Shown: positions 13,095-47,938 of the stretch, piece after piece
Layout: the number at the start of each line of letters is the position of its first letter
Position numbering within the stretch: the first letter of the stretch is position 1
Source of the DNA: Hahella sp. CCB-MM4
GTDB lineage: Bacteria > Pseudomonadota > Gammaproteobacteria > Pseudomonadales > Oleiphilaceae
Length of the DNA stretch: 64,000 bases
Assembly (NCBI RefSeq): GCF_002260525.1
Contig: NZ_MRYI01000002.1
Coordinates: 372,001 to 436,000, forward strand
Direction of reading: 5' to 3'
Position numbers and translations under genes: made by a program
The notes under the pieces: model-generated
What the model was told of the DNA's origin: nothing
The model's database searches: none
What the model saw: only the letters and a program-made list of their open reading frames with translations

Positions 13095-14411
13095 TTACTC
13101 CACAGCTTTGATCGAGTTGGCTAAACGTTCAATCAACTGATCTACCTGTTCTTTTTCAATAATCAACGGAGGCGACATGGCGATCGTGTCCGCGGTACAA
13201 CGAACCAGGGCGTCCTCTTTCCAGTAGCAATGATTGAAAATATCATAGCCACGAGCACCCACTTTATCCCGAGGAGCGAGCTCCACCGCCCCTACAAGTC
13301 CGATATTGCGGATATCCACCACATTCGGCAGACCTTTAAGGCTGTGTAGACCGTCTTCCCAATAGGACTCCATTTCCAAAGCCCGCTCAAACAACCCTTC
13401 TTTCTCATATATATCAAGGGCTGCAATACCTGCCGCTGCCGCCACAGGGTGCCCGGAATAGGTATACCCATGAAACAGCTCGATCACTTCTTCAGGACCT
13501 TCCATGAAGGCATCGTATATCTGACCGGAAACGAACACTGCTCCCATCGGTATAGCTCCGTTGGTCAGACCTTTTGCTGTCGTGATAATGTCGGGAGTGA
13601 CACCAAATCTGTTCGAGGCAAACGCCTGACCTACCCGGCCAAAACCGGTGATGACTTCATCAAAGATCAATAGAATGCCATGCTGACGAGTAATTTCTCT
13701 CAGCCTCTGCAGATACCCTTCCGGTGGCAGAATTACCCCGGCAGAACCGGCTACCGGCTCGACAATCACAGCCGCAATGGTGTCTGCACCGTGTAATGCA
13801 ATTTTGCGTTCCAGATCATTGACCAGATCTGCACCGTGTTTGGGAATCCCGCGACTGAATGCATTTTCCGGCAAAAGGGTATGACGTATATGGTCGACAC
13901 CATTGAGCAGAGTACCGAACATCCTGCGATTGTTGACCAAGCCGCCAACAGAGATGCCGCCAAAACCAACACCGTGATACCCTTTTTCGCGACCAATCAG
14001 ACGGGTTCTTTGCCCTTCCCCCTTCGCCCGGTGATAGGCCAGGGCAATTTTCAGAGCCGTGTCCACCGATTCGGAACCAGAGTTGGTGAAGAAGACTTTG
14101 TTTATTCCATCCGGAGCATGGCGAACCAGACGATTGGCCAACTCAAACGGTAGCGGGTGCCCCATCTGGAAAGTTGGGCCGTAATCCAATGTGGATATCT
14201 GGCGACTGACGGCATCTGTGATTTCCTGACGGGAATGACCCGCATTAACACACCAGAGACCTGCCGTTCCGTCGATAATCTTACGCCCATCCTGGGTTTC
14301 ATAATGCATGCCACTCGCAGCCACCAACAGACGCGGGTTGGACTTATACTGGCGGTTAGCGGTAAACGGCATCCAGAATGCATCGAGATCTTGAGGGGAT
14401 GTATTTGCCAT
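13095..14411 (-). CDS. Omega-amino acid (beta-alanine):pyruvate aminotransferase
   Basis: Class III PLP enzyme of 438 residues, close to the well-known Pseudomonas beta-alanine:pyruvate aminotransferase (OapT/BauA). Recognisable parts are FWMPFTANRQYKSNPRLL at the N-terminus, GLWCVNAGHSRQEI, FTNSGSESVDTALK, IFDEVITGFGRVG and the PLP lysine in TTAKGLTNGAIPMG (K280). It would pass the amino group of beta-alanine, GABA or putrescine to pyruvate; the following mmsA suggests beta-alanine. I use the ATG at 14411; a TTG six bases earlier is the other candidate and has an AGGTAGA just ahead of it. Confidence 0.92.
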   Translation of the reverse strand: MANTSPQDLDAFWMPFTANRQYKSNPRLLVAASGMHYETQDGRKIIDGTAGLWCVNAGHSRQEITDAVSRQISTLDYGPTFQMGHPLPFELANRLVRHAPDGINKVFFTNSGSESVDTALKIALAYHRAKGEGQRTRLIGREKGYHGVGFGGISVGGLVNNRRMFGTLLNGVDHIRHTLLPENAFSRGIPKHGADLVNDLERKIALHGADTIAAVIVEPVAGSAGVILPPEGYLQRLREITRQHGILLIFDEVITGFGRVGQAFASNRFGVTPDIITTAKGLTNGAIPMGAVFVSGQIYDAFMEGPEEVIELFHGYTYSGHPVAAAAGIAALDIYEKEGLFERALEMESYWEDGLHSLKGLPNVVDIRNIGLVGAVELAPRDKVGARGYDIFNHCYWKEDALVRCTADTIAMSPPLIIEKEQVDQLIERLANSIKAVE

Positions 14412-36597: not shown

Positions 36598-37455
36598 TCA
36601 GGAAAGAGTTCGTCTGGCAAAGTCGATGTAGAGCTCGCGCAGGCGTTTTACAACAGGTCCCGGCTTTCCATCACCTATCGCATGGCCATCAATGGAGACT
36701 ACCGGCATCACAAACGTGGTAGCGGATGAGACGAATGCCTCCTGAGCCTGATAGGCTTCTTCCGGAGTGAAGGATCTTTCCAGAATTTCCATGCCACTCT
36801 CTTCAGCCAGGGCGAGTATCGCCTTACGGGTGATTCCCGGCAGGATATCCGAACTGAGGGGCCTGGTGATCAGACGCTGCTCACGGTCAATGATGTAGGC
36901 ATTATTGGAAGTCCCCTCTGTGACATACCCATCCTCTACCATCCAGGCATCATCCGCACCCTGTTCAGCCGCACGCTGCTTCGCCATGGAGGCGGGCAAC
37001 AATCCGACCGTTTTGATGTCTCTGCGCCGCCAGCGAATATCGGGCAACGTAACCACAGTGAGACCTCTTTCAACCACCGGAGGGCTCAATACGTTACGGC
37101 TTTGAGTAAATGCTACTATGGAAGGCTTGGTATCCACCGGAAAAGCAAAATCCCTCGGGGCTGCCCCACGGGAGACCTGCAGGTATATCATGCCCTGCTC
37201 CAACTGATTACGCTCAATCAGATTCTTCTGCATCAGGGTGATTTCCTCATCGGACATGGGACAGCTCATGCCGATTTCTCCCAGCGAACGACGTAATCGG
37301 ACAAGGTGACCGGCGTTATCCACCAGTCCGCCTTCGATCACTGACGTGACCTCATAAACCCCATCGGCAAACAGGAAGCCACGGTCAAAAACGGAGATCC
37401 GGGCTTCCGATTCAGGGACGTATTCACCATTCACAAACACAATCGCTTCAGACAC
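36598..37455 (-). CDS. dat: D-amino-acid aminotransferase (class IV PLP)
   Basis: Transfers amino groups between D-amino acids and keto acids, for example D-alanine and 2-oxoglutarate. The 285-residue fold-type IV enzyme has FVNGEYVPESEARISVFDRGFLFADGVYE shared by the family and the PLP lysine K148 in RRRDIKTVGLLPA; the EGTSNNAYII motif follows at about 174-183. It is the last gene of the TAXI-TRAP-usp-dat row, 11 bp after the stress-protein gene. A branched-chain aminotransferase is less likely given the RRRDIK sequence. Confidence 0.9.
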   Translation of the reverse strand: MSEAIVFVNGEYVPESEARISVFDRGFLFADGVYEVTSVIEGGLVDNAGHLVRLRRSLGEIGMSCPMSDEEITLMQKNLIERNQLEQGMIYLQVSRGAAPRDFAFPVDTKPSIVAFTQSRNVLSPPVVERGLTVVTLPDIRWRRRDIKTVGLLPASMAKQRAAEQGADDAWMVEDGYVTEGTSNNAYIIDREQRLITRPLSSDILPGITRKAILALAEESGMEILERSFTPEEAYQAQEAFVSSATTFVMPVVSIDGHAIGDGKPGPVVKRLRELYIDFARRTLS

Positions 37456-37466
37456 CTGCCACCTCT

Positions 37467-37913
37467 TTAATTACGTCCATCTCGAGCTTTTACGACCATT
37501 ACAGGAATTTTGGCACGACCAACTACCTTGTTGGCTATAGAACCCAATACCGCCTTTTCAATCCTGGAATGCTTGTGGCTTGCCATGACAATCAGATCCG
37601 CCTTCACTTTATCAGCCATCTTCAGAATCATATCTGCCGGTTTGCCTTCCAGGGTGGAAGCCTTGTAGGTAACACTGTCATCGGTGAAGAAATCTTCAAG
37701 AAAGGTCTCCAGGTCCTTTTCCGCCTGCTTGAGAGCTTTGTCAAAAGCATCATCAGGGAAAAATGACCCTACCCAGGGATTCTGATAGCCCGGTACCACA
37801 TGAACCACATGCAAACAGCCTTTCTTGTCCAACAGTTCTCTGGCGTGGGTTAACGCCAGACTGGAAAAACCGTCTTCACACATATCCACAGGAACAACTA
37901 TTGATTTGTACAT
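37467..37913 (-). CDS. Universal stress protein (UspA family)
   Basis: Single-domain Usp of 148 residues: YKSIVVPVDMCEDG at the start, and the ATP-binding loop near the end as MASHKHSRIEKAVLGSIANKVVGRAKIPVMVV (G-2x-G-9x-G(S/T)-like but incomplete). Genes of this family often follow TRAP transporters, and in TeaABC-type systems a Usp (TeaD) binds ATP and modulates the carrier. It lies 12 bp after the TRAP permease gene, which supports that role here. Confidence 0.9.
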   Translation of the reverse strand: MYKSIVVPVDMCEDGFSSLALTHARELLDKKGCLHVVHVVPGYQNPWVGSFFPDDAFDKALKQAEKDLETFLEDFFTDDSVTYKASTLEGKPADMILKMADKVKADLIVMASHKHSRIEKAVLGSIANKVVGRAKIPVMVVKARDGRN

Positions 37914-37925
37914 AATTAAGCTCCT

Positions 37926-40514
37926 TCAGGCTACCGCCGTTGCCGATTTTGCCCGGCGTTGGCGCTGTAACGTGGCGACCAATCCCAATAACAGTACCGC
38001 AGGTATAAACATCCATTCTTTCGCAGGACGGTCAGACGCCTGCTGGATACCCACAATTTTCCATCCAAAATCCAACCCGGATTTCTGAGCCTGACTACCG
38101 AAAACCACCATGTCCACTTCCCAGTCATTTTCTTCTTCCGTCAGCATCAGCCCCATGGAATTCAGCCTGGCTTCTGCACCATCCAGAGCTTCATTCAGGC
38201 TCAGCGACACGGTCTTCGACACCTCGTCGCCGTCCAGAGTGACGCCTTCTACATTCAATTGAATGAATTCACCCGGCTGCAGTTTGTCCACAGTCTGATA
38301 CAGCTCAGTGGCCGGCAGGGTTTCATAGGGTGGATACAGATAATCCATCCAGAAGCCCGGACGGAACAATGTAAACGCAATCAGCAGCAATGCCAGACTT
38401 TCCCAGATTTTACTTTTTACCAGCCAATAACCTTGAGTGGCAGCCGAAAATACCAGCATTGCCATCACCGCACTGACGATGGTCAAAAGTAAATCAAACA
38501 CAGAGTCGATGCCGATCAGCAACAACTGGGTATTAAACAGGAACATGAAGGGCAGAATCGCCGTCCGGATATCATAGGTGAATCCCTGGATACCGGTTTT
38601 AATCGGATCAGACCGTGCTATCGCCGCGGCCGCGAATGCCGCCAGTCCTACCGGTGGTGTGTCATCCGCCAGGATCCCGAAATAGAACACAAACATGTGC
38701 ACCGCGATCAGTGGCACGATTAGTCCATTTTCCGCCCCCAGGGTGACGATGACCGGAGCCATCAACGTTGATACCACAATATAGTTGGCCGTTGTAGGCA
38801 GTCCCATTCCCAGAATGATGCAGATAATCGCTGTGAAAATCAGGATGAGAATCAGACTACCGCCGGAGATGAATTCGACGAATTCCGTCATCATCTGTCC
38901 CAGACCGGTCAGGGTAACCGTTCCAACAATAATGCCGGCTGCCGCAGTGGCCACACCAATACCGACCATGTTGCGGGCACCGTTGATCAGACCTTCGACA
39001 AAATCATTCCAGCAGTGGGCAAATCTTGAGGTCCAATCGGTCTCGCCCCGAAACCACGCTTTTAACGGGCGATGAGTGAGTACGATAGCAATCAGGAACA
39101 CGACAGAATAGAACGCCGATTGCTGAGGAGAATAGCGTTTTACGGCCAGCGCCCACAGAAGCACAACGATCGGCAGGGCAAAGTAAAGCCCGGACAGTAC
39201 CGTTGGGCGAACTTCGGGCAAGTGATCCAGCTCAATACTGTCGTCATCTTCCGCCAGTTCTGGATAACTTGCGGCAATTTTTAACAGCCAGAAATAAGCG
39301 GCCACTACTGCCAGGATCATGACAGGGTATGACCAGCCACCTAACATGGACTCCAGGAAAGTACTGCCGTAATACACAATACCTGACAAGGCCAGCAGAA
39401 TGACTATGTTCATGCTCCAAACCATCATACGCTGGGCAATCGTCGGCTTATTCCGACGCTCAATACCCTGCATATTCAGTTTTACAGCTTCCAGGTGCAC
39501 GATATAAACCAGTGCGATATAAGAAATAATGGATGGCAGGATGGCGTGTTTTACCACCTCGATATAGGAAATCCCCACATATTCCACCATCAGAAATGCA
39601 GCTGCCCCCATGATAGGTGGAGTGAGCTGTCCATTGGTGGAGGCAGCGACCTCTACGGCCCCTGCTTTAGTACCGGGGAAACCGACCCGCTTCATCAAAG
39701 GAATGGTAAAGGTACCGGTCGTCACCACATTGGCAATGGATGAGCCGGAAATAATGCCGCTCAATCCGGATGCAACCACCGCAGCCTTGGCAGGGCCTCC
39801 GCGCATATGCCCTAACAGCGAGAAAGACGTCTTGATCAGATAGTTCCCTGCTCCGGCCTTATCCAATAAGGCTCCTAGCAGTACAAACAAGAATACAAAG
39901 GTTGTGGATACCCCCAACGCGACACCGAATACGCCCTCAGTCGTGATCCACTGGTGTGATGCGACCTTGTTTAGACTGGCTCCCTTATGGGCGATAACGT
40001 CCGGCATATACTGGCCGAAGAAGGTAAAGATCAGGAATACAATCGCCACCACCATCAAAGGTGGCCCCAATGCACGTCGAGTAGCCTCAAGCAAAGTAAT
40101 CATGCCGATCACTGCAATAACAACGTCTGCCAGAATCGGTGCTCCCATACGGTTGGCCAATTCATCCCGGTACACCAGCAGATAGAGGCAGGCAACTGCA
40201 CCGGCAATGGCATAGGCCCAATCGAAGATCGTCACACGATCATGAGCTGAAGCTTTGCGGGCAGGAAATAAACAGAATGTAAGCAACAATGCAAAGGACA
40301 GGTGTATAAACTTTGCCTGATCTTCATTTAAAGTGCCGAAATTGAAAATAAACGGTAATGGCGACGCATACCATAGCTGAAAAGCGGACCAGGCGATCAG
40401 CAACCCGATCACCATTTTTCCGACAGGTCCGGTCAGGGTTCTGCTACCCGTCTCAGAGCGTAGCAACTCGTCTACTGCAGAGTTATCTGAAGTATTGGTC
40501 GTGGATTCCGACAT
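37926..40514 (-). CDS. TRAP transporter fused permease (DctQM type, TAXI family)
   Basis: Inner-membrane secondary carrier of 862 residues, sodium- or proton-driven, working with the TAXI binding protein upstream. A small 4TM-like part is fused to the large 12TM part (LPTTANYIVVSTLMAP, GGPAKAAVVASGLSGIISGSS), and a soluble DUF3394 domain sits at the C-terminus before a last TM helix. The ATG at 40514 (MSESTTNTS) has GGAGAG upstream; a longer reading from 40565 is less likely. Substrate unknown. The downstream D-amino-acid aminotransferase suggests an amino or keto acid. Confidence 0.94.
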   Translation of the reverse strand: MSESTTNTSDNSAVDELLRSETGSRTLTGPVGKMVIGLLIAWSAFQLWYASPLPFIFNFGTLNEDQAKFIHLSFALLLTFCLFPARKASAHDRVTIFDWAYAIAGAVACLYLLVYRDELANRMGAPILADVVIAVIGMITLLEATRRALGPPLMVVAIVFLIFTFFGQYMPDVIAHKGASLNKVASHQWITTEGVFGVALGVSTTFVFLFVLLGALLDKAGAGNYLIKTSFSLLGHMRGGPAKAAVVASGLSGIISGSSIANVVTTGTFTIPLMKRVGFPGTKAGAVEVAASTNGQLTPPIMGAAAFLMVEYVGISYIEVVKHAILPSIISYIALVYIVHLEAVKLNMQGIERRNKPTIAQRMMVWSMNIVILLALSGIVYYGSTFLESMLGGWSYPVMILAVVAAYFWLLKIAASYPELAEDDDSIELDHLPEVRPTVLSGLYFALPIVVLLWALAVKRYSPQQSAFYSVVFLIAIVLTHRPLKAWFRGETDWTSRFAHCWNDFVEGLINGARNMVGIGVATAAAGIIVGTVTLTGLGQMMTEFVEFISGGSLILILIFTAIICIILGMGLPTTANYIVVSTLMAPVIVTLGAENGLIVPLIAVHMFVFYFGILADDTPPVGLAAFAAAAIARSDPIKTGIQGFTYDIRTAILPFMFLFNTQLLLIGIDSVFDLLLTIVSAVMAMLVFSAATQGYWLVKSKIWESLALLLIAFTLFRPGFWMDYLYPPYETLPATELYQTVDKLQPGEFIQLNVEGVTLDGDEVSKTVSLSLNEALDGAEARLNSMGLMLTEEENDWEVDMVVFGSQAQKSGLDFGWKIVGIQQASDRPAKEWMFIPAVLLLGLVATLQRQRRAKSATAVA

Positions 40515-40684
40515 CCTGGACTCTCCATTAATGATGCCTGCATTGGCACAATAGCCTGACAACACAACGGGGCGTTGATATTGAGGCTATATCGGTCAGG
40601 TTAAGGAGACAAGCTTCAATTTCGGGCATAACCACGAAACCTGTTAGCTGGTCAGTGTTGACAATGGCGGTATGAAAGGAATTT

Positions 40685-40727
40685 CCCTGGCCAGCCGGTC
40701 ATCAGTATTGACCGGACTTAGCCAGGG
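40685..40727 (-). promoter_or_regulatory. Intercistronic stem-loop between TAXI and TRAP genes
   Basis: Long nested hairpin: outer arms CCCTGGC / GCCAGGG and inner arms CCGGTCA / TGACCGG with a 7-base loop. It begins 11 bp after the TAXI stop. With no T-run it is more likely an mRNA-stabilising or processing structure that raises the binding protein above the permease, as in many binding-protein operons. Confidence 0.6.
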
Positions 40728-40737
40728 TATGCCGGCC

Positions 40738-41721
40738 TTACATCAGGCCTGCTTCTTTATAGTATTTGATCGCACCAGGGTGCAGAGGAGCAGAAAGACC
40801 GTCTTTGATCATTTCTTCTTTCTTGAGATTTGCGAAAGCTGGATGCAGCTTTTTGAAGGTTTCGAAGTTTTCGAATACGGCTTTCACCACTTCGTAGACC
40901 ACTTTTTCAGGAACCTTGGCGGAAGAAACAAAGGTCGCGCCGACACCGAAGGTCTGGACATCGTTATCGCTGCCGCGATACATGCCACCAGGAATGGTTG
41001 CCTTACGGTAGAATGGATTCTCTTTAACCAGCTTATCCACAGCAGGACCGGTAACGTTAACCAGAACGCTGTCACAGGAAGTAGTCGCTTCCTTGATAGA
41101 TCCGCTTGGGTGGCCGACGGTGTAGATCATGGCATCGATCTTGTTGTCGCAGAGTGCCTTGGACTGTTCAGCAGCTTTCAGCTCTGAGGTCAGGGCAAAT
41201 GTATCATTGTTCCAGCCCAGCTCACCCATCAATACTTCCATGGTGCCACGCTGACCGGAACCCGGGTTACCGATGTTAACGCGCTTGCCCTTGAGATCTT
41301 CAAAGTTCTTGATGCCTGCATCAGCGCGTGCAACAACGGTGAAAGGCTCTGGGTGAACGGAGAATACTGCACGCAGATCCTTGAAAGGACCGGATTCTTC
41401 AAATTTGCTGGTACCATTGTATGCGTGATACTGCCAATCGGATTGGGCAACCCCCATATCCAGTTCGCCGGCACGAATGGTATTGATGTTGTAGATAGAG
41501 CCACCTGTGCTTTCTACTGAGCAGCGAATTCCGTGCTCTTTACGGGTCTTGTTAACAAGACTACAAATTGCACCACCGGTAGGATAGTAAACGCCGGTGA
41601 CGCCGCCCGTACCAATAGTAATGAAATCCTGTGCCTGGACAGGCGTGGTCATGGCTGCAACGGTAATTCCGACTCCAGCTACAACTGACTTGATTGCAGT
41701 ACCCACTGTCTTGATCTTCAT
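40738..41721 (-). CDS. TAXI-family TRAP solute-binding protein
   Basis: Periplasmic substrate-binding protein of 327 residues. The signal peptide ([31 protein letters not shown]) is followed by the TAXI opening [25 protein letters not shown], then [26 protein letters not shown]. The ATG at 41721 has AGAGG upstream; 20 extra upstream residues are possible but do not resemble a signal peptide. It heads the row TAXI-TRAP-usp-dat. Known TAXI ligands include glutamate-like acids, but the ligand here cannot be inferred. Confidence 0.93.
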
Positions 41722-41953
41722 TACGTTTCCTCTTGTTTCTTTTTTTATCGACATTGACAAACAAAAGCCCGGCGCACCCATATTACTGAGGCCCGGTCTT
41801 CGCTCATGGTCCTTTCTACTGAAAGTAACTGAGAGATAATTCTCTCTCTCGATTCACTTCCAGCCCAGAAACTGCGCAATTTTTGTACAGATTTTTTCCC
41901 TTTCACATCAATATAGTCCATAGCGAAGCGGTTCACACTAAGTATCGACCACT

Positions 41954-42043: not shown

Positions 42044-42895
42044 CTATTTCAACAGACGGTGCCTGGCCTCCAATGCATTCAGAATAGGACGATTCAGCTG
42101 CCGTGCAATGCCTGCAACCTGTTGAACAAGCGCCGCATTATCGGGCGCAGTATCTCCGTGATTAAGGAGCAGATTATTCTCAAACCCGACTCGTACATCA
42201 CCTCCCATCGCCAGCGCCCCCATACAAACCGGGTACTCAAGCGCCCCGAATCCGCAGACCGCCCAGGGAGTATCATCGCAATGGGCAGCCAGCATGGTGG
42301 CAAGATCAGCAGGACTTCCCTGCCCCCGGCGCCCAATGACAAATAGCAGGTGATGTCCGGTAGATGGAATAAACCCTGACATTTTCAGTTGATGATACCG
42401 CTGCACATCATGGACGTCGTATAAGATATATTGAGGCAAGATACCGGATTCACTCACCCAGGCCAGAAACTCCCCCACTCCCTGTATGTCACGATCCCCC
42501 TGCATGGACTTTCCCTCTCCTTCGGAAACAGGTAGTAGCTCAGCTATGGCAAGACTGACAGCATCGGGGATCACTTTTCGGACCGAAGCCATCTGCTGGG
42601 CCGGCGTATATTGCCCCACCGCTTCAGTGGTCATCTGAATAATCAAATTATCCCCCACAGTGTCCTTCACCCGATCGATAAACCGGCGATTCAGATCAGG
42701 ATCAAGAGAATGGCGTCCTTCATCATCCCTCGCATGCATATGGATCATTGCAGCACCAGCCTCTTGGCAGAGAGCGGCACATTCCGCCATGTCATCCGGC
42801 GACAAAGGTAAGCGGCCGTGGTCATCCCGCCCTCTACGTGCGCCGTTGGGAGCTACGATGATCAATGCCGGTGGTAACGTGGGATCTACAGTCAT
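42044..42895 (-). CDS. Beta-keto acid cleavage enzyme (BKACE, DUF849 family)
   Basis: Zinc-dependent enzyme of 283 residues that condenses a beta-keto acid with acetyl-CoA and splits it into acetoacetate and a new acyl-CoA. Visible are NGARRGRDDH near 17-26, zinc ligands H52 and H54 in IHMHARD, MTTEAVG, and the late glutamate in VRVGFENN. The founding member is 3-keto-5-aminohexanoate cleavage enzyme (Kce), and others act on dehydrocarnitine and various beta-keto acids. Its start overlaps the aminotransferase stop by one base (TGATG), so the aminotransferase product is probably its substrate or leads to it. Confidence 0.9.
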   Translation of the reverse strand: MTVDPTLPPALIIVAPNGARRGRDDHGRLPLSPDDMAECAALCQEAGAAMIHMHARDDEGRHSLDPDLNRRFIDRVKDTVGDNLIIQMTTEAVGQYTPAQQMASVRKVIPDAVSLAIAELLPVSEGEGKSMQGDRDIQGVGEFLAWVSESGILPQYILYDVHDVQRYHQLKMSGFIPSTGHHLLFVIGRRGQGSPADLATMLAAHCDDTPWAVCGFGALEYPVCMGALAMGGDVRVGFENNLLLNHGDTAPDNAALVQQVAGIARQLNRPILNALEARHRLLK

Positions 42896-44250
42896 CAGAC
42901 AGCCTCCTGGTATAGCATGGGTTGTATCGCCTGAGAGGCTCGGTCAACAGCGACGTATAACTTGTCGACCAACTCTTCGAGCTGGGAGGTATTCAAAATA
43001 AATGGAGGGGCAAGCAGCACATGGTGACCCAAGCGGCCGTCGATCGTGCCCGCCATGGGATAACACATCAGCCCCTCCTCCAAGGCGAACGCCTTAATCA
43101 GTTTATGCATCAGAGTGGTTTCCGGCAGGGGGGCTTTGGTGATTCTGTCTCTGACCATCTCAAGACCAATAAACAAGCCGCGTCCCCGAATGTCTCCCAC
43201 CAGAGGGTGAGACCCGAAGCGCTCATGCAGCAATGGGAATAGCTGGCCACTCAAGCCATTAACCTGCTCCAGCAAACCATCCTCACGAATGACTTTCTGA
43301 ACCGCCAAAGCAGCAGCACAAGCCGTCGGATGCCCCATATAGGTGTGGCCATTCTGGAAATATCCGGTCCCTTCGGCGATGGCATCGTATATCCCATCGC
43401 TTACCATCAGCGCCCCAATCGGCTGATAACCGGCTCCCAAACCTTTTGCGATGGCGATCATATCGGGAACAACATCATCCTGCTCGCAGGCAAACAGAGT
43501 ACCCGTACGTCCCATCCCGCACATGACTTCGTCCAGTATCAAAAGGATGTCATGCTGACGGCAAATTTCTCCAACCCTTTTGAAATATCCGGGGACGGCA
43601 GGAACCGCACCGGCGGTTGCGCCCACCACGGGTTCAGCCACAAAAGCGAGAATGTTCTCCGCTCCCTGCTCGGCAATCACACTCGACAGTTCTTCAGCGA
43701 CTCTCTGACCATATTCCCATTCAGATTCGTCATTCCAGCGGTCGCGATATGCATAGCAGGGAGCAATCAGATTGGCGGGGGCCATCAACGGTTCATATGG
43801 TGCACGCCGCCACTGGTTGCCACCCACCCCAAGCGCTCCAAGCGTATTCCCGTGGTAGCTCTGGCGACGGGCGATAAAGTAACGCTTACTGCTTTGTCCC
43901 TTTTCCAAAAAGTATTGTCTTGCCAGTTTGAGCGCCGCTTCCATGGACTCGGATCCCCCACTGGTGAAGTACACGTGATTCAAATGTCCTGGAGCACTCT
44001 CTGCCAGCAGATCCGCCAACTCTTCTGCCGCAGCATTGGTAAAAAAGCCAGTGTGAGCAAAAGGAATCGCCTCTATTTGTTGTTTGATTGCCGCCAGCAC
44101 CCGAGGGTGACTATGTCCCAGGCTGGAAACGGCAGCCCCGCCACAACCGTCCAGATACTGTTTACCCGTACTATCCACGATATATGGCCCCTGGCCGGAC
44201 ACAGCGACTGGCAGCGGGGAACGGCATTGACGGTGAAACACATGAGACAT
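42895..44250 (-). CDS. Class III aminotransferase of unknown amino donor
   Basis: PLP-dependent omega-type aminotransferase of 451 residues. Features are CGGAAVSSLGHSHPRV, FTSGGSESMEAALKLARQY, SYHGNTLGALGVGG, ILDEVMCGMGRTG and the PLP lysine in AIAKGLGAGYQPIG. It is distinct from the SpuC and beta-alanine enzymes at the left. Translational coupling to the BKACE gene suggests it makes, or prepares, a beta-keto acid from an amino acid. The divergent LysR gene at 44381 is the likely regulator. Confidence 0.88.
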   Translation of the reverse strand: MSHVFHRQCRSPLPVAVSGQGPYIVDSTGKQYLDGCGGAAVSSLGHSHPRVLAAIKQQIEAIPFAHTGFFTNAAAEELADLLAESAPGHLNHVYFTSGGSESMEAALKLARQYFLEKGQSSKRYFIARRQSYHGNTLGALGVGGNQWRRAPYEPLMAPANLIAPCYAYRDRWNDESEWEYGQRVAEELSSVIAEQGAENILAFVAEPVVGATAGAVPAVPGYFKRVGEICRQHDILLILDEVMCGMGRTGTLFACEQDDVVPDMIAIAKGLGAGYQPIGALMVSDGIYDAIAEGTGYFQNGHTYMGHPTACAAALAVQKVIREDGLLEQVNGLSGQLFPLLHERFGSHPLVGDIRGRGLFIGLEMVRDRITKAPLPETTLMHKLIKAFALEEGLMCYPMAGTIDGRLGHHVLLAPPFILNTSQLEELVDKLYVAVDRASQAIQPMLYQEAV

Positions 44251-44341
44251 GAGAAAAGCTCCTGGCGATAGACAAGCCTGTTGAATGACGCCATTTAAAG
44301 CGGTTCACTTTTTGTACGCAACGGAGTAATACGCTATCCTC

Positions 44342-44356
44342 ATGAGAATTTCTCAT
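44342..44356. promoter_or_regulatory. Palindromic LysR-type operator
   Basis: Perfect 15-bp palindrome ATGAGAATTTCTCAT with a T-N11-A core, between the divergent aminotransferase and LysR genes and 25 bp before the preferred LysR start. It overlaps an upstream ATG that could be mistaken for the start codon. Confidence 0.65.
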
Positions 44357-44380
44357 GCCACAATCCCAATCAGGCCTCTC

Positions 44381-45274
44381 ATGCCCCGACGTCTACCACC
44401 GCTCAATGCTGTTAAAGCCTTTGAAGCTGCCGCACGCCACCTCAGTTTTACCAAAGCGGCAGAGGAACTTAGCGTGACCCAGGGCGCCATCAGCAAACAG
44501 ATCAAAATCCTGGAATCCTTTCTGGACACTCCTTTGTTTGAGCGACATGCCGGCGGAATTGCTCTCACTGAAGCCGGCCACCAGTATCTCCCGGTAGTGG
44601 CAGGAGTCTTCGACACCCTTTCCCATGCCACCCGCAATCTGAAGGAGCAGGTTGATGCCAGTGAGCCTTTATTGCTAAATGTCATACCGTCCCTTGCCAG
44701 TATCTGGCTCCTACCCCGGCTGAAGTATTTCTACGAGCGCCATCCAAACATTCAGGTTGATATTGTCACTGGAGACGGGCAGATGAACTTTGCCAATTCC
44801 AATGCCGACGTCGCCATTCGTTGCCTGCATAGGGATCGTGCACCTACCCAGGCAGAGCAAATTTTGCAGGAGCGTTTGATGGTCGTGGCCGCCCCCACGC
44901 TGCTGGCAGAAAAACCGGTGAAGACACCGGCTGACCTATTAAGTCACCGATTACTACCTCACAGCACCCGGCCAGGCCAATGGACCCGGGTTCTGGAAAA
45001 CTTCGATGTAAACCCCGAACTCGGCAATTACGGAGCAGGATGGGAACATTTCTTCATGACCCTTCAGGCGGTCAAGGCAGGTTTAGGTATCGGCCTGGTA
45101 CCTGATTTCCTGGCAGAGGAAACCATTCGCAGTGGAGAACTGGTGAACGTACTCGGGGTTACCATAAAAAGTGACTACGAATACTATTGGCTGTGTCCAG
45201 GCTATAAATCCGGGCTCCATAAAGTCCATGTATTTCATCGCTGGCTTTTGGAAAATCTGCGTTCGTATAGTTAA
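44381..45274 (+). CDS. LysR-family regulator, GcvA-like
   Basis: DNA-binding regulator of 297 residues with the GcvA-group N-terminus MPRRLPPLNAVKAFEAAARHLSFTKAAEELSVTQGAISKQIK and a PBP-like effector domain. I use the ATG at 44381 because GcvA-type proteins begin exactly here and because the earlier ATG at 44342 is part of a palindrome that looks like an operator. It likely controls the divergent aminotransferase-BKACE operon and perhaps the BCCT gene downstream. The 260-bp gap after it contains no gene. Confidence 0.9.
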   Translation: MPRRLPPLNAVKAFEAAARHLSFTKAAEELSVTQGAISKQIKILESFLDTPLFERHAGGIALTEAGHQYLPVVAGVFDTLSHATRNLKEQVDASEPLLLNVIPSLASIWLLPRLKYFYERHPNIQVDIVTGDGQMNFANSNADVAIRCLHRDRAPTQAEQILQERLMVVAAPTLLAEKPVKTPADLLSHRLLPHSTRPGQWTRVLENFDVNPELGNYGAGWEHFFMTLQAVKAGLGIGLVPDFLAEETIRSGELVNVLGVTIKSDYEYYWLCPGYKSGLHKVHVFHRWLLENLRSYS

Positions 45275-45534
45275 TAGGAGAATCAATTGGAGGTTCAAAA
45301 CAGCCCTGAGCGGCCGCTCTAAAACCTGAGACAATTTTACTTTGAACTCTACACAGTCTCCTTTCTCTATTTTTCTTCTACACTCTAATTTTTGATCATC
45401 TTCATGTAGAATCAATAAAATAGACAAGTCATCGGCTTGTTACAGGCGAAACATTCCTGACCTGCATTATTTTCAACACTAATTGAAGTCAGGCGTGTGA
45501 GATCGCCACTAAACAAGAATCAACAGGAGCCCCT

Positions 45535-47130
45535 ATGAATCATACAGACTCATCCCGGCCGGTCGATCCAGATTACGATACCGACTATGAGGTAGGCCAG
45601 GATAACGTACAGATGATGGGCATGGATCTTCATAATCCGGTCTTTTTCATTAGTGCAATTCTTATCCTGATATTTGTCATCGGAACCCTGCTATTCCCAG
45701 CAGAAGCCAAAGAGGCACTAGTCGGTGCCAGAGGATGGTCGATCGATCGTTTTGACTGGCTGTTTATGATCGGTGGCAATATCTTCGTTATTTTCTGCTT
45801 GGCAATCATTGTGTTGCCGGTCGGAAAAATCCGTCTGGGCGGAAAAGATGCCAAACCTGAGTTCTCCACTATCTCCTGGTTTGCCATGTTGTTCGCTGCA
45901 GGAATGGGAATTGGCCTCATGTTCTGGAGTGTCGCCGAGCCCATTGCCTATTACACCGACTGGTATGGCACACCACTAAATGCGGAGGCACATACCCAGG
46001 CCGGCGCCAGAGCTGCCATGGGTGCCACCATGTATCACTGGGGTCTTCACCCTTGGGCAATTTACGGCGTAGTGGCACTAGCCCTGGCGTTCTTTTCCTA
46101 TAATAAGGATCTTCCTCTTACCATCAGATCCGCTTTCTTTCCCTTGTTCGGGGACCGGGTATGGGGCCATCTGGGTAATCTGATCGATGTACTGGCCGTA
46201 CTGGCCACTATCTTCGGCCTGGCGACCTCACTTGGCCTTGGCGCTCAACAGGCGGCCAGCGGTCTGCATTTCCTGTTTGATTTACCCAACACCATCAACA
46301 CTCAGGTGGCCATCATTATCGGGGTCACCTCGGTGGCAATATTCTCTGTGGTGCGAGGACTTGATGGTGGCGTTAAACTCCTCAGTAACATCAATATGAT
46401 TCTGGCGGCAGCTCTGCTGCTATTCATCATATTTGCCGGGCCAACCCTGTCCATTTTATCCACTGTCGGCATGACTCTTGGTTCCTATGTGGAAAACATT
46501 ATCCCCCTGAGCAACTGGGTCGGACGTGAAGACCAGACCTGGTTCCATGGCTGGACTGTGTTTTACTGGGCCTGGTGGATTTCCTGGTCGCCATTTGTCG
46601 GTATGTTCATCGCACGCGTATCCAAAGGCCGCACCGTACGTGAATTCATGACTGCGGTACTGCTGGTTCCCACCCTCGTAACATTAATCTGGATGGCAGC
46701 ATTCGGCGGATCTGCCCTTGATCAGGCCCAGGCAGGCGTTGGCGCACTGAGTGAAGGTATTTCAGAAGTTTCCCTGGCGATGTTCCAAATGCTTGAAAAT
46801 CTGCCCCTGACATCTATCACCTCATTCCTCGGTATCACCTTGGTTCTGGTGTTTTTTGTCACCTCCTCAGACTCTGGCTCACTGGTCATTGACAGCATCA
46901 CCGCAGGTGGTAAAACCGACGCCCCGGTTCCTCAGCGTATTTTCTGGGCAACCCTGGAAGGTTTGATCGCAGGAGCGTTGCTGTTCGGTGGCGGAGCTGA
47001 AGCCCTTACGGCATTGCAGGCCGGCGCTATCGCTACGGGTCTGCCATTCACCGTGGTGCTGATCCTGATGTGCGTCAGCCTCTACAAGGGACTCAATTCA
47101 GAGTACAAACTTCACCACAAAAATAAGTGA
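45535..47130 (+). CDS. BCCT-family betaine/carnitine/choline transporter
   Basis: Inner-membrane sodium- or proton-coupled carrier of 531 residues with about twelve transmembrane segments. The family signature is FYWAWWISWSPFVGMFIARVSKGRTVREF, and the glycine-rich AAGMGIGLMFWSVAEP and GLATSLGLGAQQ stretches are present. Substrates are quaternary or zwitterionic amines such as glycine betaine, carnitine or ectoine. The lack of a long cytosolic tail argues against an osmosensing BetP-type protein. A leader with no gene (45275-45534) precedes it. Linkage to the BKACE/aminotransferase genes suggests catabolic import. Confidence 0.93.
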   Translation: MNHTDSSRPVDPDYDTDYEVGQDNVQMMGMDLHNPVFFISAILILIFVIGTLLFPAEAKEALVGARGWSIDRFDWLFMIGGNIFVIFCLAIIVLPVGKIRLGGKDAKPEFSTISWFAMLFAAGMGIGLMFWSVAEPIAYYTDWYGTPLNAEAHTQAGARAAMGATMYHWGLHPWAIYGVVALALAFFSYNKDLPLTIRSAFFPLFGDRVWGHLGNLIDVLAVLATIFGLATSLGLGAQQAASGLHFLFDLPNTINTQVAIIIGVTSVAIFSVVRGLDGGVKLLSNINMILAAALLLFIIFAGPTLSILSTVGMTLGSYVENIIPLSNWVGREDQTWFHGWTVFYWAWWISWSPFVGMFIARVSKGRTVREFMTAVLLVPTLVTLIWMAAFGGSALDQAQAGVGALSEGISEVSLAMFQMLENLPLTSITSFLGITLVLVFFVTSSDSGSLVIDSITAGGKTDAPVPQRIFWATLEGLIAGALLFGGGAEALTALQAGAIATGLPFTVVLILMCVSLYKGLNSEYKLHHKNK

Positions 47131-47392: not shown

Positions 47393-47938
47393 ATGTACCC
47401 AATGGTGCTCAAGATAACACCCTCGGGCTTGCCACAGTGTTGGCTGGACGTTTACTCCGCGGTAACAGAACTTGTTTGTGAAAGAGTTCTTTACAGCTTT
47501 GGTGATGTCTGTGCCACTTTTCATGGTGGTTATAATAACGAAGGTGTTCAATCGACTATCGACGTCCCACAAATCCTTGTAGGCCGCCAGAACCCGCGAG
47601 AGCTACGCTCCACTCCCCCCCTAATGAATAAATACCTGTTTTCCAGGGATGGATACCGTTGCATGTATTGCGGTGACCAGTTTCCGCAATATCTTCTCAG
47701 CCGGGATCATATCCTCCCGATCAGCAAGGGTGGACGGGATATCTGGACCAATGTGGTTACCGCCTGCAAGCGCTGCAACAGCCACAAAGGAAACAAACTT
47801 CTGTCAGATTGTGGAATGGAATTACTGGCCGTGCCTTATACACCTAACCGCTATGAATATTTGTATCTGGCGAATCGCCGCATCCTTGCAGACCAAATGG
47901 AATTTCTAAAGAAAGGATTTAGAAACCTGGTGACCTGA
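47393..47938 (+). CDS. HNH endonuclease
   Basis: Protein of 181 residues with a C-terminal HNH nuclease domain. Zinc cysteines are C90/C93 (CMYCG) and C125/C128 (CKRCN), with the catalytic H106 in SRDHILPISKGG, N120 in WTNVV and H131. The first 75 residues are unassigned. Stand-alone HNH proteins of this kind are common in marine gammaproteobacteria, and their role (phage defence, repair or scavenging) is not known. The ATG has AGAGGTG upstream. Confidence 0.88.
   Translation: MYPMVLKITPSGLPQCWLDVYSAVTELVCERVLYSFGDVCATFHGGYNNEGVQSTIDVPQILVGRQNPRELRSTPPLMNKYLFSRDGYRCMYCGDQFPQYLLSRDHILPISKGGRDIWTNVVTACKRCNSHKGNKLLSDCGMELLAVPYTPNRYEYLYLANRRILADQMEFLKKGFRNLVT

Follow-up and report, generated by a model that had tools for sequence, protein, structure and literature searches.

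An aminotransferase-DUF849 gene pair of Hahella sp. CCB-MM4 as a candidate route from a glutamate-like amino acid to acetoacetate

A 64,000-nucleotide stretch of the Hahella sp. CCB-MM4 genome (contig NZ_MRYI01000002.1, positions 372,001 to 436,000; the whole stretch is called the window, and positions are counted from its first letter) contains a class III aminotransferase gene whose stop shares one base with the start of a gene for a DUF849 protein, a relative of the beta-keto acid cleavage enzymes (BKACEs). Which substrate does this pair process, and by what chemistry? The first-pass annotation, made from the sequence alone, joined the pair to a divergent LysR regulator and a BCCT carrier and proposed import, transamination and cleavage with acetyl-CoA. 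All four open reading frames (ORFs) were confirmed (283, 451, 310 and 531 amino acids for DUF849, aminotransferase, LysR and BCCT, the LysR frame being 44342–45274), as were their families and the one-base overlap, and the interpretation as a whole was partly supported. We tentatively favor the catabolism of an acidic, glutamate-like amino acid, with beta-glutamate as the likeliest candidate, to acetoacetate, a reading that we hold to be somewhat short of probable.

The aminotransferase matched Aminotran_3 at 307.1 bits and passed the PRK07483 cut-off of 485 bits, and the regulator matched the LysR family in a Pfam-type search. For the DUF849 protein, the best NCBIfam model was Lys_ferment_KCE, at 144.5 bits against a cut-off of 382. 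Its PF05853 TIM-barrel fold was evident from the profile match, from an AlphaFold2 model (pLDDT 93.5) and from Foldseek, in which the nearest solved fold was Kce (2y7e; TM 0.84, 28% identity in the Foldseek alignment). No second DUF849 gene was found in the 6.66-Mb genome.

The active site was analyzed by aligning clade members with Kce, PdKce and other DUF849 proteins (11 comparison sequences). A first set of 91 clade rows came from loci found with DUF849 patterns, and a second set of 34 rows came from aminotransferase searches together with the unlinked clade genes L195 and L271 (L and G numbers denote loci and genomes of the comparison); the 125 rows comprise 124 distinct sequences, as L251 of the second set repeats L031 of the first. 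The zinc ligands H52, H54 and E239 and the catalytic tyrosine (Y159, corresponding to Kce Y145) were shared with Kce and kept in 91/91 and 34/34 rows. R56 and R235, the latter also shared with Kce and equivalent to PdKce R254, which was earlier proposed as the base, were kept throughout the first set, and the second set agreed. In contrast, the position of Kce Glu143 and PdKce Glu171 is Ile157 in every clade row (91/91 and 34/34), the nearby Glu of Kce is Gln155, and Kce Asp231 is Asn240, whereas Asp occupies position 240 in all 11 comparison sequences and Glu occupies both 155 and 157 in 10 of them. Glu91 and Glu119 are invariant in the clade and new relative to the comparison proteins, and His62 was present in 91/91 first-set rows and in all but one row of the second set.

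The equivalence of position 157 with PdKce E171 follows from the alignment and from the Tyr173/Tyr145 correspondence stated in PMC12871164. Changing PdKce E171 to leucine abolished activity (PMC11961710). Because this essential Glu of a characterised BKACE is Ile across the clade, ordinary BKACE chemistry appears doubtful here, including the canonical cleavage assumed in the first-pass annotation, and '3-keto-5-aminohexanoate cleavage protein', the usual label, is probably a misnomer for the clade. A considerable share of the family that carries the BKACE name is thus without the residue shown to be required for that activity. Position 20, equivalent to Kce Glu14, which we take to be the ammonium-binding residue, is Arg in the window protein and appears to follow the partner enzyme in the main, as well as the tree: in the first set it was Arg in 49/51 aminotransferase-linked rows, Tyr in 14/18 dehydrogenase-linked rows and Arg in 15/22 of the others, and in the second set it was Arg in 32/34.

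The altered site also bears on a substrate alternative, in which beta-alanine is transaminated to malonate semialdehyde and BKACE cleavage then gives formyl-CoA and acetoacetate. Some BKACEs perform this reaction in vitro and in engineered cells, according to PMC11961710, which also terms it new-to-nature. With the required E171 replaced by Ile in the clade, and with glutamate-type carriers ill-suited to beta-alanine, this explanation is very unlikely.

Is the pair a chance neighborhood of one genome? The DUF849-side scan used an alignment of 11 clade members. Its best 80 loci of at least 538 relatives, together with 8 loci on plasmids and 3 further loci from relatives, made up a set of 91. 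Of these, 50 had an aminotransferase within 4 kb, 18 had a 3-hydroxyacyl-CoA-dehydrogenase-like gene within 3 kb, and 23 had neither; one of the 23, L029, is a canonical DUF849 and served as the outgroup. The window DUF849 fell within an 11-row gammaproteobacterial clade, all 11 rows aminotransferase-linked (support 100/99, bootstrap not settled), and the aminotransferase label required 10 changes on the tree versus a mean of 30 in shuffles. A TAXI gene of more than 50% identity was present in 31 of the 50 aminotransferase-linked loci and a TRAP permease in 25, counted over the stretch examined. The order aminotransferase-DUF849-TAXI-TRAP on one strand was observed in Thalassospira and other Alphaproteobacteria, and a Thalassospira marina plasmid is annotated with this order followed by a universal stress protein (USP) gene. 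The DUF849 gene is divergent from the aminotransferase and TAXI-TRAP genes in Rhizobiales, and three Vibrionaceae have aminotransferase-DUF849-TAXI with no permease visible.

PRK07483 aminotransferases above the cut-off occurred in 21/369 genomes of the class and 53/398 of the phylum, the window genome being counted in both. A clade DUF849 was found in the 1.5-kb flanks of the aminotransferase in 11 of the 21 class genomes. Four of the 53 phylum genomes (the window's, G421, G600 and G728) were outside the test of co-occurrence, in which 25 of 49 aminotransferase genomes held a clade DUF849 versus 0/31 other genomes; the two genes were adjacent in 21 of the 25. The 31 comparison genomes were chosen by serial number, many of them coming from few families, and the Fisher test of this contrast takes no account of relatedness. 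G421, checked separately, gave no clade DUF849 match, and G600 and G728 do carry one, at L267 and L268.

From the aminotransferase side, we collected contexts at 52 phylum loci and, apart from the window genome, in 19 of 20 class genomes; an aminotransferase above 48% identity was retained in 49 and 19 of these, respectively. Neighbors were counted if they lay within 7.5 kb and scored at least 80 bits. DUF849 was present in 9/19 class and 21/49 phylum loci, TAXI in 7/19 and 25/49, and parts of amino-acid ATP-binding cassette (ABC) transporters in 3/19 and 9/49, a loose count, since the queries for the ATPase and the permease may also hit other systems. Aminotransferase and DUF849 distances correlated at 0.73 (49 loci; 0/2000 permutations as high), versus 0.24 for TAXI with the aminotransferase and 0.27 for TAXI with DUF849 (30 loci; values reached in 8 and 18 of 2000 permutations). 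The aminotransferase and DUF849 thus form a conserved, co-inherited core with an exchangeable transporter, which upholds their pairing in the first-pass annotation. The comparison defines a widespread module, the pair being found across Proteobacteria, in which the transporters are of acidic amino-acid type and acetoacetate is the likely exit.

The carrier had been proposed to be the BCCT protein, and a TAXI-TRAP transporter at 37926–41781, downstream on the aminotransferase/DUF849 strand, had been overlooked. A BCCT gene lay within 7.5 kb in 1/68 aminotransferase-side loci (28% identity; 1/19 class, 0/49 phylum) and exceeded 50% identity in 2/91 loci, the congener L027 and Psychromonas L037, in the latter about 8 kb from the pair. 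As it is almost never linked to the pair elsewhere, it was rejected as the carrier of the module. The window BCCT scored 546.7 bits against the glycine betaine model NF047988 and did not reach its cut-off of 650. The first-pass route, with BCCT as the importer of a betaine or beta-amino acid and canonical acetyl-CoA-dependent cleavage as the next stage, would agree with the presence of BCCT, LysR and the pair together at this site in the window and L027 (0/4 in L140) and with the BCCT gene that follows the cluster in L037; the lack of BCCT conservation at other loci and the location of TAXI-TRAP on the aminotransferase strand make it most improbable. Carnitine-type substrates were considered and left low.

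What, then, does the TAXI-TRAP transporter bind? Over 297 residues, the window TAXI shares 70% identity with PDB chain 8s4j, which we took as VcGluP because the numbering fits every residue named in PMC11574862, including those contacting L-glutamate. It retains V44, Y45, Y46, S75, Q93, H123, E125, G156, Y200 and G203 of VcGluP, among them the ligand-contacting Y45, S75, Q93 and E125, and the two systems share a downstream USP gene. It departs from VcGluP at S40 (Gly), D157 (Gln) and M201 (Thr) and, unlike VcGluP, adjoins an aminotransferase and a DUF849 gene. D157Q, M201T and S40G were discarded as pointers to a beta-amino ligand, since many TAXIs unlinked to the pair have them. The pocket is consistent with a glutamate-like ligand and does not point to beta-glutamate specifically, because many relatives without the pair show the same changes. 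Other carriers take its place at some loci: GltI in L040 (385 bits, cut-off 375) with a 65% relative in L101, a GltP-like carrier below the cut-off in L087, and an annotated GlnHPQ in L023. Judged from context, the transporter class of the module is that of acidic or polar amino-acid carriers, often TAXI-TRAP.

Alternatively, TAXI-TRAP merely supplies L-glutamate, its neighborhood is incidental, and the pair acts on an unrelated internal beta-amino acid. This would suit the weak TAXI correlations and the congener G003, which has the transporter block without the pair; set against the frequent TAXI neighbors in the phylum and class loci and the substitution by other Glu/Asp-type carriers in some, it seems improbable. 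A second TAXI binding protein (G000:C85:523037-523996; L137, L145) is 63% identical and has no TRAP permease among the adjoining listed ORFs.

The gene context was also analyzed for the product. In L172 and L179, two loci from a single family, an acetoacetate-CoA ligase gene (TIGR01217, above the cut-off) directly follows the aminotransferase; in L181 it comes after DUF849. A thiolase gene overlaps the aminotransferase in G154 (L177), where an unlinked clade DUF849 adjoins an acetoacetate-CoA ligase. In L088, an Opitutaceae contig, genes for a regulator, the aminotransferase, a thiolase and a fused 3-oxoacid CoA-transferase form one series that is divergent from DUF849. Because a ligase, thiolase or CoA-transferase lies beside the pair or the aminotransferase in a few unrelated genomes, these direct neighbors in separate lineages (five genomes) suggest acetoacetate as the likely product, in agreement with the first-pass annotation. 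The window genome has an acetoacetate-CoA ligase elsewhere (872 bits); congeners without the pair have one as well, so the ligase is not specific to the pair. Polyhydroxybutyrate-type genes near L050, L056 and L066 were not used as product evidence, being 6.5–7.6 kb away and limited to three Vibrionaceae, nor was a CoA-transferase-like gene in the dehydrogenase-linked L035, 7.5 kb from DUF849.

The ligase neighbors would also be compatible with 3-aminobutyrate as the substrate, in which case the aminotransferase itself makes acetoacetate and DUF849 acts on another step. In L172 and L179 the ligase directly follows the aminotransferase, and the best DUF849 match in these genomes reaches only 97–101 bits; that of G270 (L201) is canonical by its residues. 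However, DUF849 would then be idle despite its adjacency in most genomes having both genes, and the transporters are of glutamate type; we consider this explanation rather unlikely.

In the route that we tentatively favor, TAXI-TRAP would import an acidic, glutamate-like amino acid, and the aminotransferase would convert it to a beta-keto acid, with 2-oxoglutarate probably serving as the keto acid that accepts the amino group. The large NAD-glutamate dehydrogenase that follows the ligase in L172 (PF05088, 909 bits; a 76% relative in L179) fits 2-oxoglutarate as the acceptor. The DUF849 protein, a predicted zinc TIM barrel, would turn the beta-keto acid into acetoacetate, from which acetoacetate-CoA ligase and thiolase would yield acetyl-CoA. 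The best guess for the substrate is beta-glutamate (3-aminoglutarate), preferred because its transamination would give 3-oxoglutarate, a beta-keto diacid without a housekeeping outlet; to our knowledge, it is the only nameable simple acidic amino acid giving such a diacid. Beta-glutamate is a known osmolyte, and the route, if true, would be a sink for it. The DUF849 step might be an acetyl-CoA-dependent cleavage to acetoacetate and malonyl-CoA with a relocated base, or a plain decarboxylation to acetoacetate and CO2. The conserved pair, the transporter class and the altered active site were read from sequence and context; from there we infer the substrate, the amino acceptor and the choice between the two chemistries. 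3-Oxoglutarate readily loses CO2 spontaneously, so DUF849 could be dispensable, and a clade DUF849 is found in about half of the aminotransferase genomes.

DUF849 group G6 has a beta-ketoglutarate activity on record and is described as non-BKACE with decarboxylation activity (PMC4922564), statements that presumably refer to one activity. The most specific version of the favored reading is an undescribed beta-glutamate route in which the clade converts 3-oxoglutarate to acetoacetate in a zinc-dependent reaction instead of acetyl-CoA-dependent cleavage, with a site rebuilt around Ile157, Asn240, Glu91, Glu119 and Arg20; in this complete form it is doubtful. A search of open-licence papers returned nothing on the aminotransferase-DUF849 pair or on beta-glutamate catabolism. 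According to PMC3149608, lysine fermentation likewise combines a beta-aminotransferase (Kat) with a DUF849 enzyme (Kce) and yields acetoacetate; Kat differs in being HemL-like and in accepting no substrates but CoA thioesters. In Paraburkholderia, transamination of beta-phenylalanine also converts a beta-amino acid to a beta-keto acid (PMC6150868), the substrate being aromatic; the opening of that abstract does not mention DUF849 or TAXI.

Several observations weigh against the beta-glutamate route. TAXIs with the same pocket exist in relatives that lack the pair, as does the whole transporter block in G003, so that this TAXI is not specialised; its distance correlations with the pair are weak. 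No clade DUF849 was found in 24 of the 49 tested aminotransferase genomes, and ligase or thiolase genes within 7.5 kb are rare (4/19 class, 0/49 phylum loci). Position 20 tracks the tree as well as the partner, and of the two second-set rows with Tyr (2/34), one (L182) is aminotransferase-linked. The module is also found in soil genera, a habitat range that fits beta-glutamate less well, and a dehydrogenase with flavin adenine dinucleotide (FAD) and GcvT domains, which the route leaves unexplained, is a direct neighbor of one or the other gene of the pair at four loci.

Another acidic amino acid could be the substrate, of aspartate type or a sulfonate or phosphonate analogue, giving oxaloacetate or its analogue. 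DUF849 would handle this product as in ObcA, a relative that reportedly handles oxaloacetate with acetyl-CoA. The Glu/Asp-type carriers at the loci, the arginines that most rows have at the clade-specific positions 20, 118 and 189 and a D-cysteate sulfo-lyase gene after DUF849 in L052 are consistent with this, and one DUF849 enzyme accepts a phosphonate according to PMC12871164. However, oxaloacetate needs no dedicated route, and the ligase directly after the aminotransferase in L172 and L179, which lack a clade DUF849, would be left unexplained; we regard this possibility as unlikely.

The coordinates of the features are listed in Table 1. BCCT through the class IV transaminase follow the window gene order in the congener G006, and the transaminase gene is also inside the transporter block of G006 and G003. 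G003 has the transporter block followed by the HNH gene, with BCCT, LysR, aminotransferase and DUF849 all missing between them and no DUF849 match anywhere in the genome; the four genes therefore behave as a present/absent cassette at this site.

Table 1. Features of the aminotransferase-DUF849 locus (window positions)
Feature	Position	Strand	Remarks
Class III aminotransferase, PRK07483 type	42895..44250	-	451 aa; NF005685 721.5 bits, cut-off 485
DUF849 (PF05853 BKACE) protein, non-canonical active-site clade	42044..42895	-	283 aa; PF05853 222.8 bits
GcvA-like LysR, divergent from aminotransferase	44381..45274	+	NF008352 292.1 bits, cut-off 288; frame open from 44342
BCCT carrier	45535..47130	+	531 aa; PF02028 619.6 bits; probably outside core route
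TAXI-family TRAP solute-binding protein, glutamate type	40738..41781	-	TIGR02122 386 bits (searched as 40738-41703)
Fused TRAP permease	37926..40565	-	TIGR02123 678 bits
Universal-stress-protein-like gene	37467..37913	-	UspG match 71.9/189 bits, below cut-off; same order in L020
Class IV D-amino-acid transaminase, role uncertain	36598..37455	-	PRK06680 403 bits
Palindrome CATGAGAATTTCTCATG, possible LysR operator	44341..44357	.	longer in congener L027
HNH endonuclease-like gene	47393-47938		right edge of four-gene cassette in congeners with and without cassette

A perfect palindromic operator had also been claimed for the regulator. The palindrome itself is real, a perfect 8+1+8 repeat (CATGAGAA-T-TTCTCATG, 44341–44357) that is extended to 10+1+10 at the same place in L027. 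The GcvA model starts at residue 14 of the longer LysR frame, which moves the LysR start to 44381 and leaves the palindrome in the intergenic space. The mere presence of the palindrome is weak evidence for an operator, because it is one of three of this kind in the 18 kb between 36 and 54 kb of the window. It was not seen in the six other gammaproteobacterial loci examined; it is possibly the LysR operator. A promoter scan gave a chance-level result, and a terminator scan was slightly above chance, with a strong terminator-like hairpin after the BCCT gene.

Two more class III aminotransferase genes lie on the same contig, at about 1–1107 and 13260–14360 of the window, and share 33% and 36% identity with the aminotransferase of the pair. 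The FAD and GcvT-domain dehydrogenase mentioned above (about 800 amino acids, dimethylglycine-dehydrogenase-like by eye) occurs in L173, L185, L188 and L097, with amino-acid ABC genes in L173 and L185; perhaps N-methylated precursors are used. Genes for gamma-glutamyltransferase or C45-family hydrolases near the pair or the aminotransferase (L087, L088, L264, L023, L219, L220, L223, L228) may reflect release of the substrate from a conjugate. In Microvirga (L019, L032, L036), a clade DUF849 gene follows genes for an IlvD-type dehydratase, a tripartite tricarboxylate transporter (TTT) solute-binding protein and an L-carnitine-dehydrogenase-like protein (279 bits in L019, below that model's cut-off of 414), an arrangement that resembles a hydroxy-acid counterpart of the aminotransferase route. 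Clade DUF849 genes beside FAH-looking and NTF2-like genes in L065, L096 and L108, with an extradiol dioxygenase subunit in L065 and L096, suggest a further DUF849 role, perhaps in aromatic degradation.

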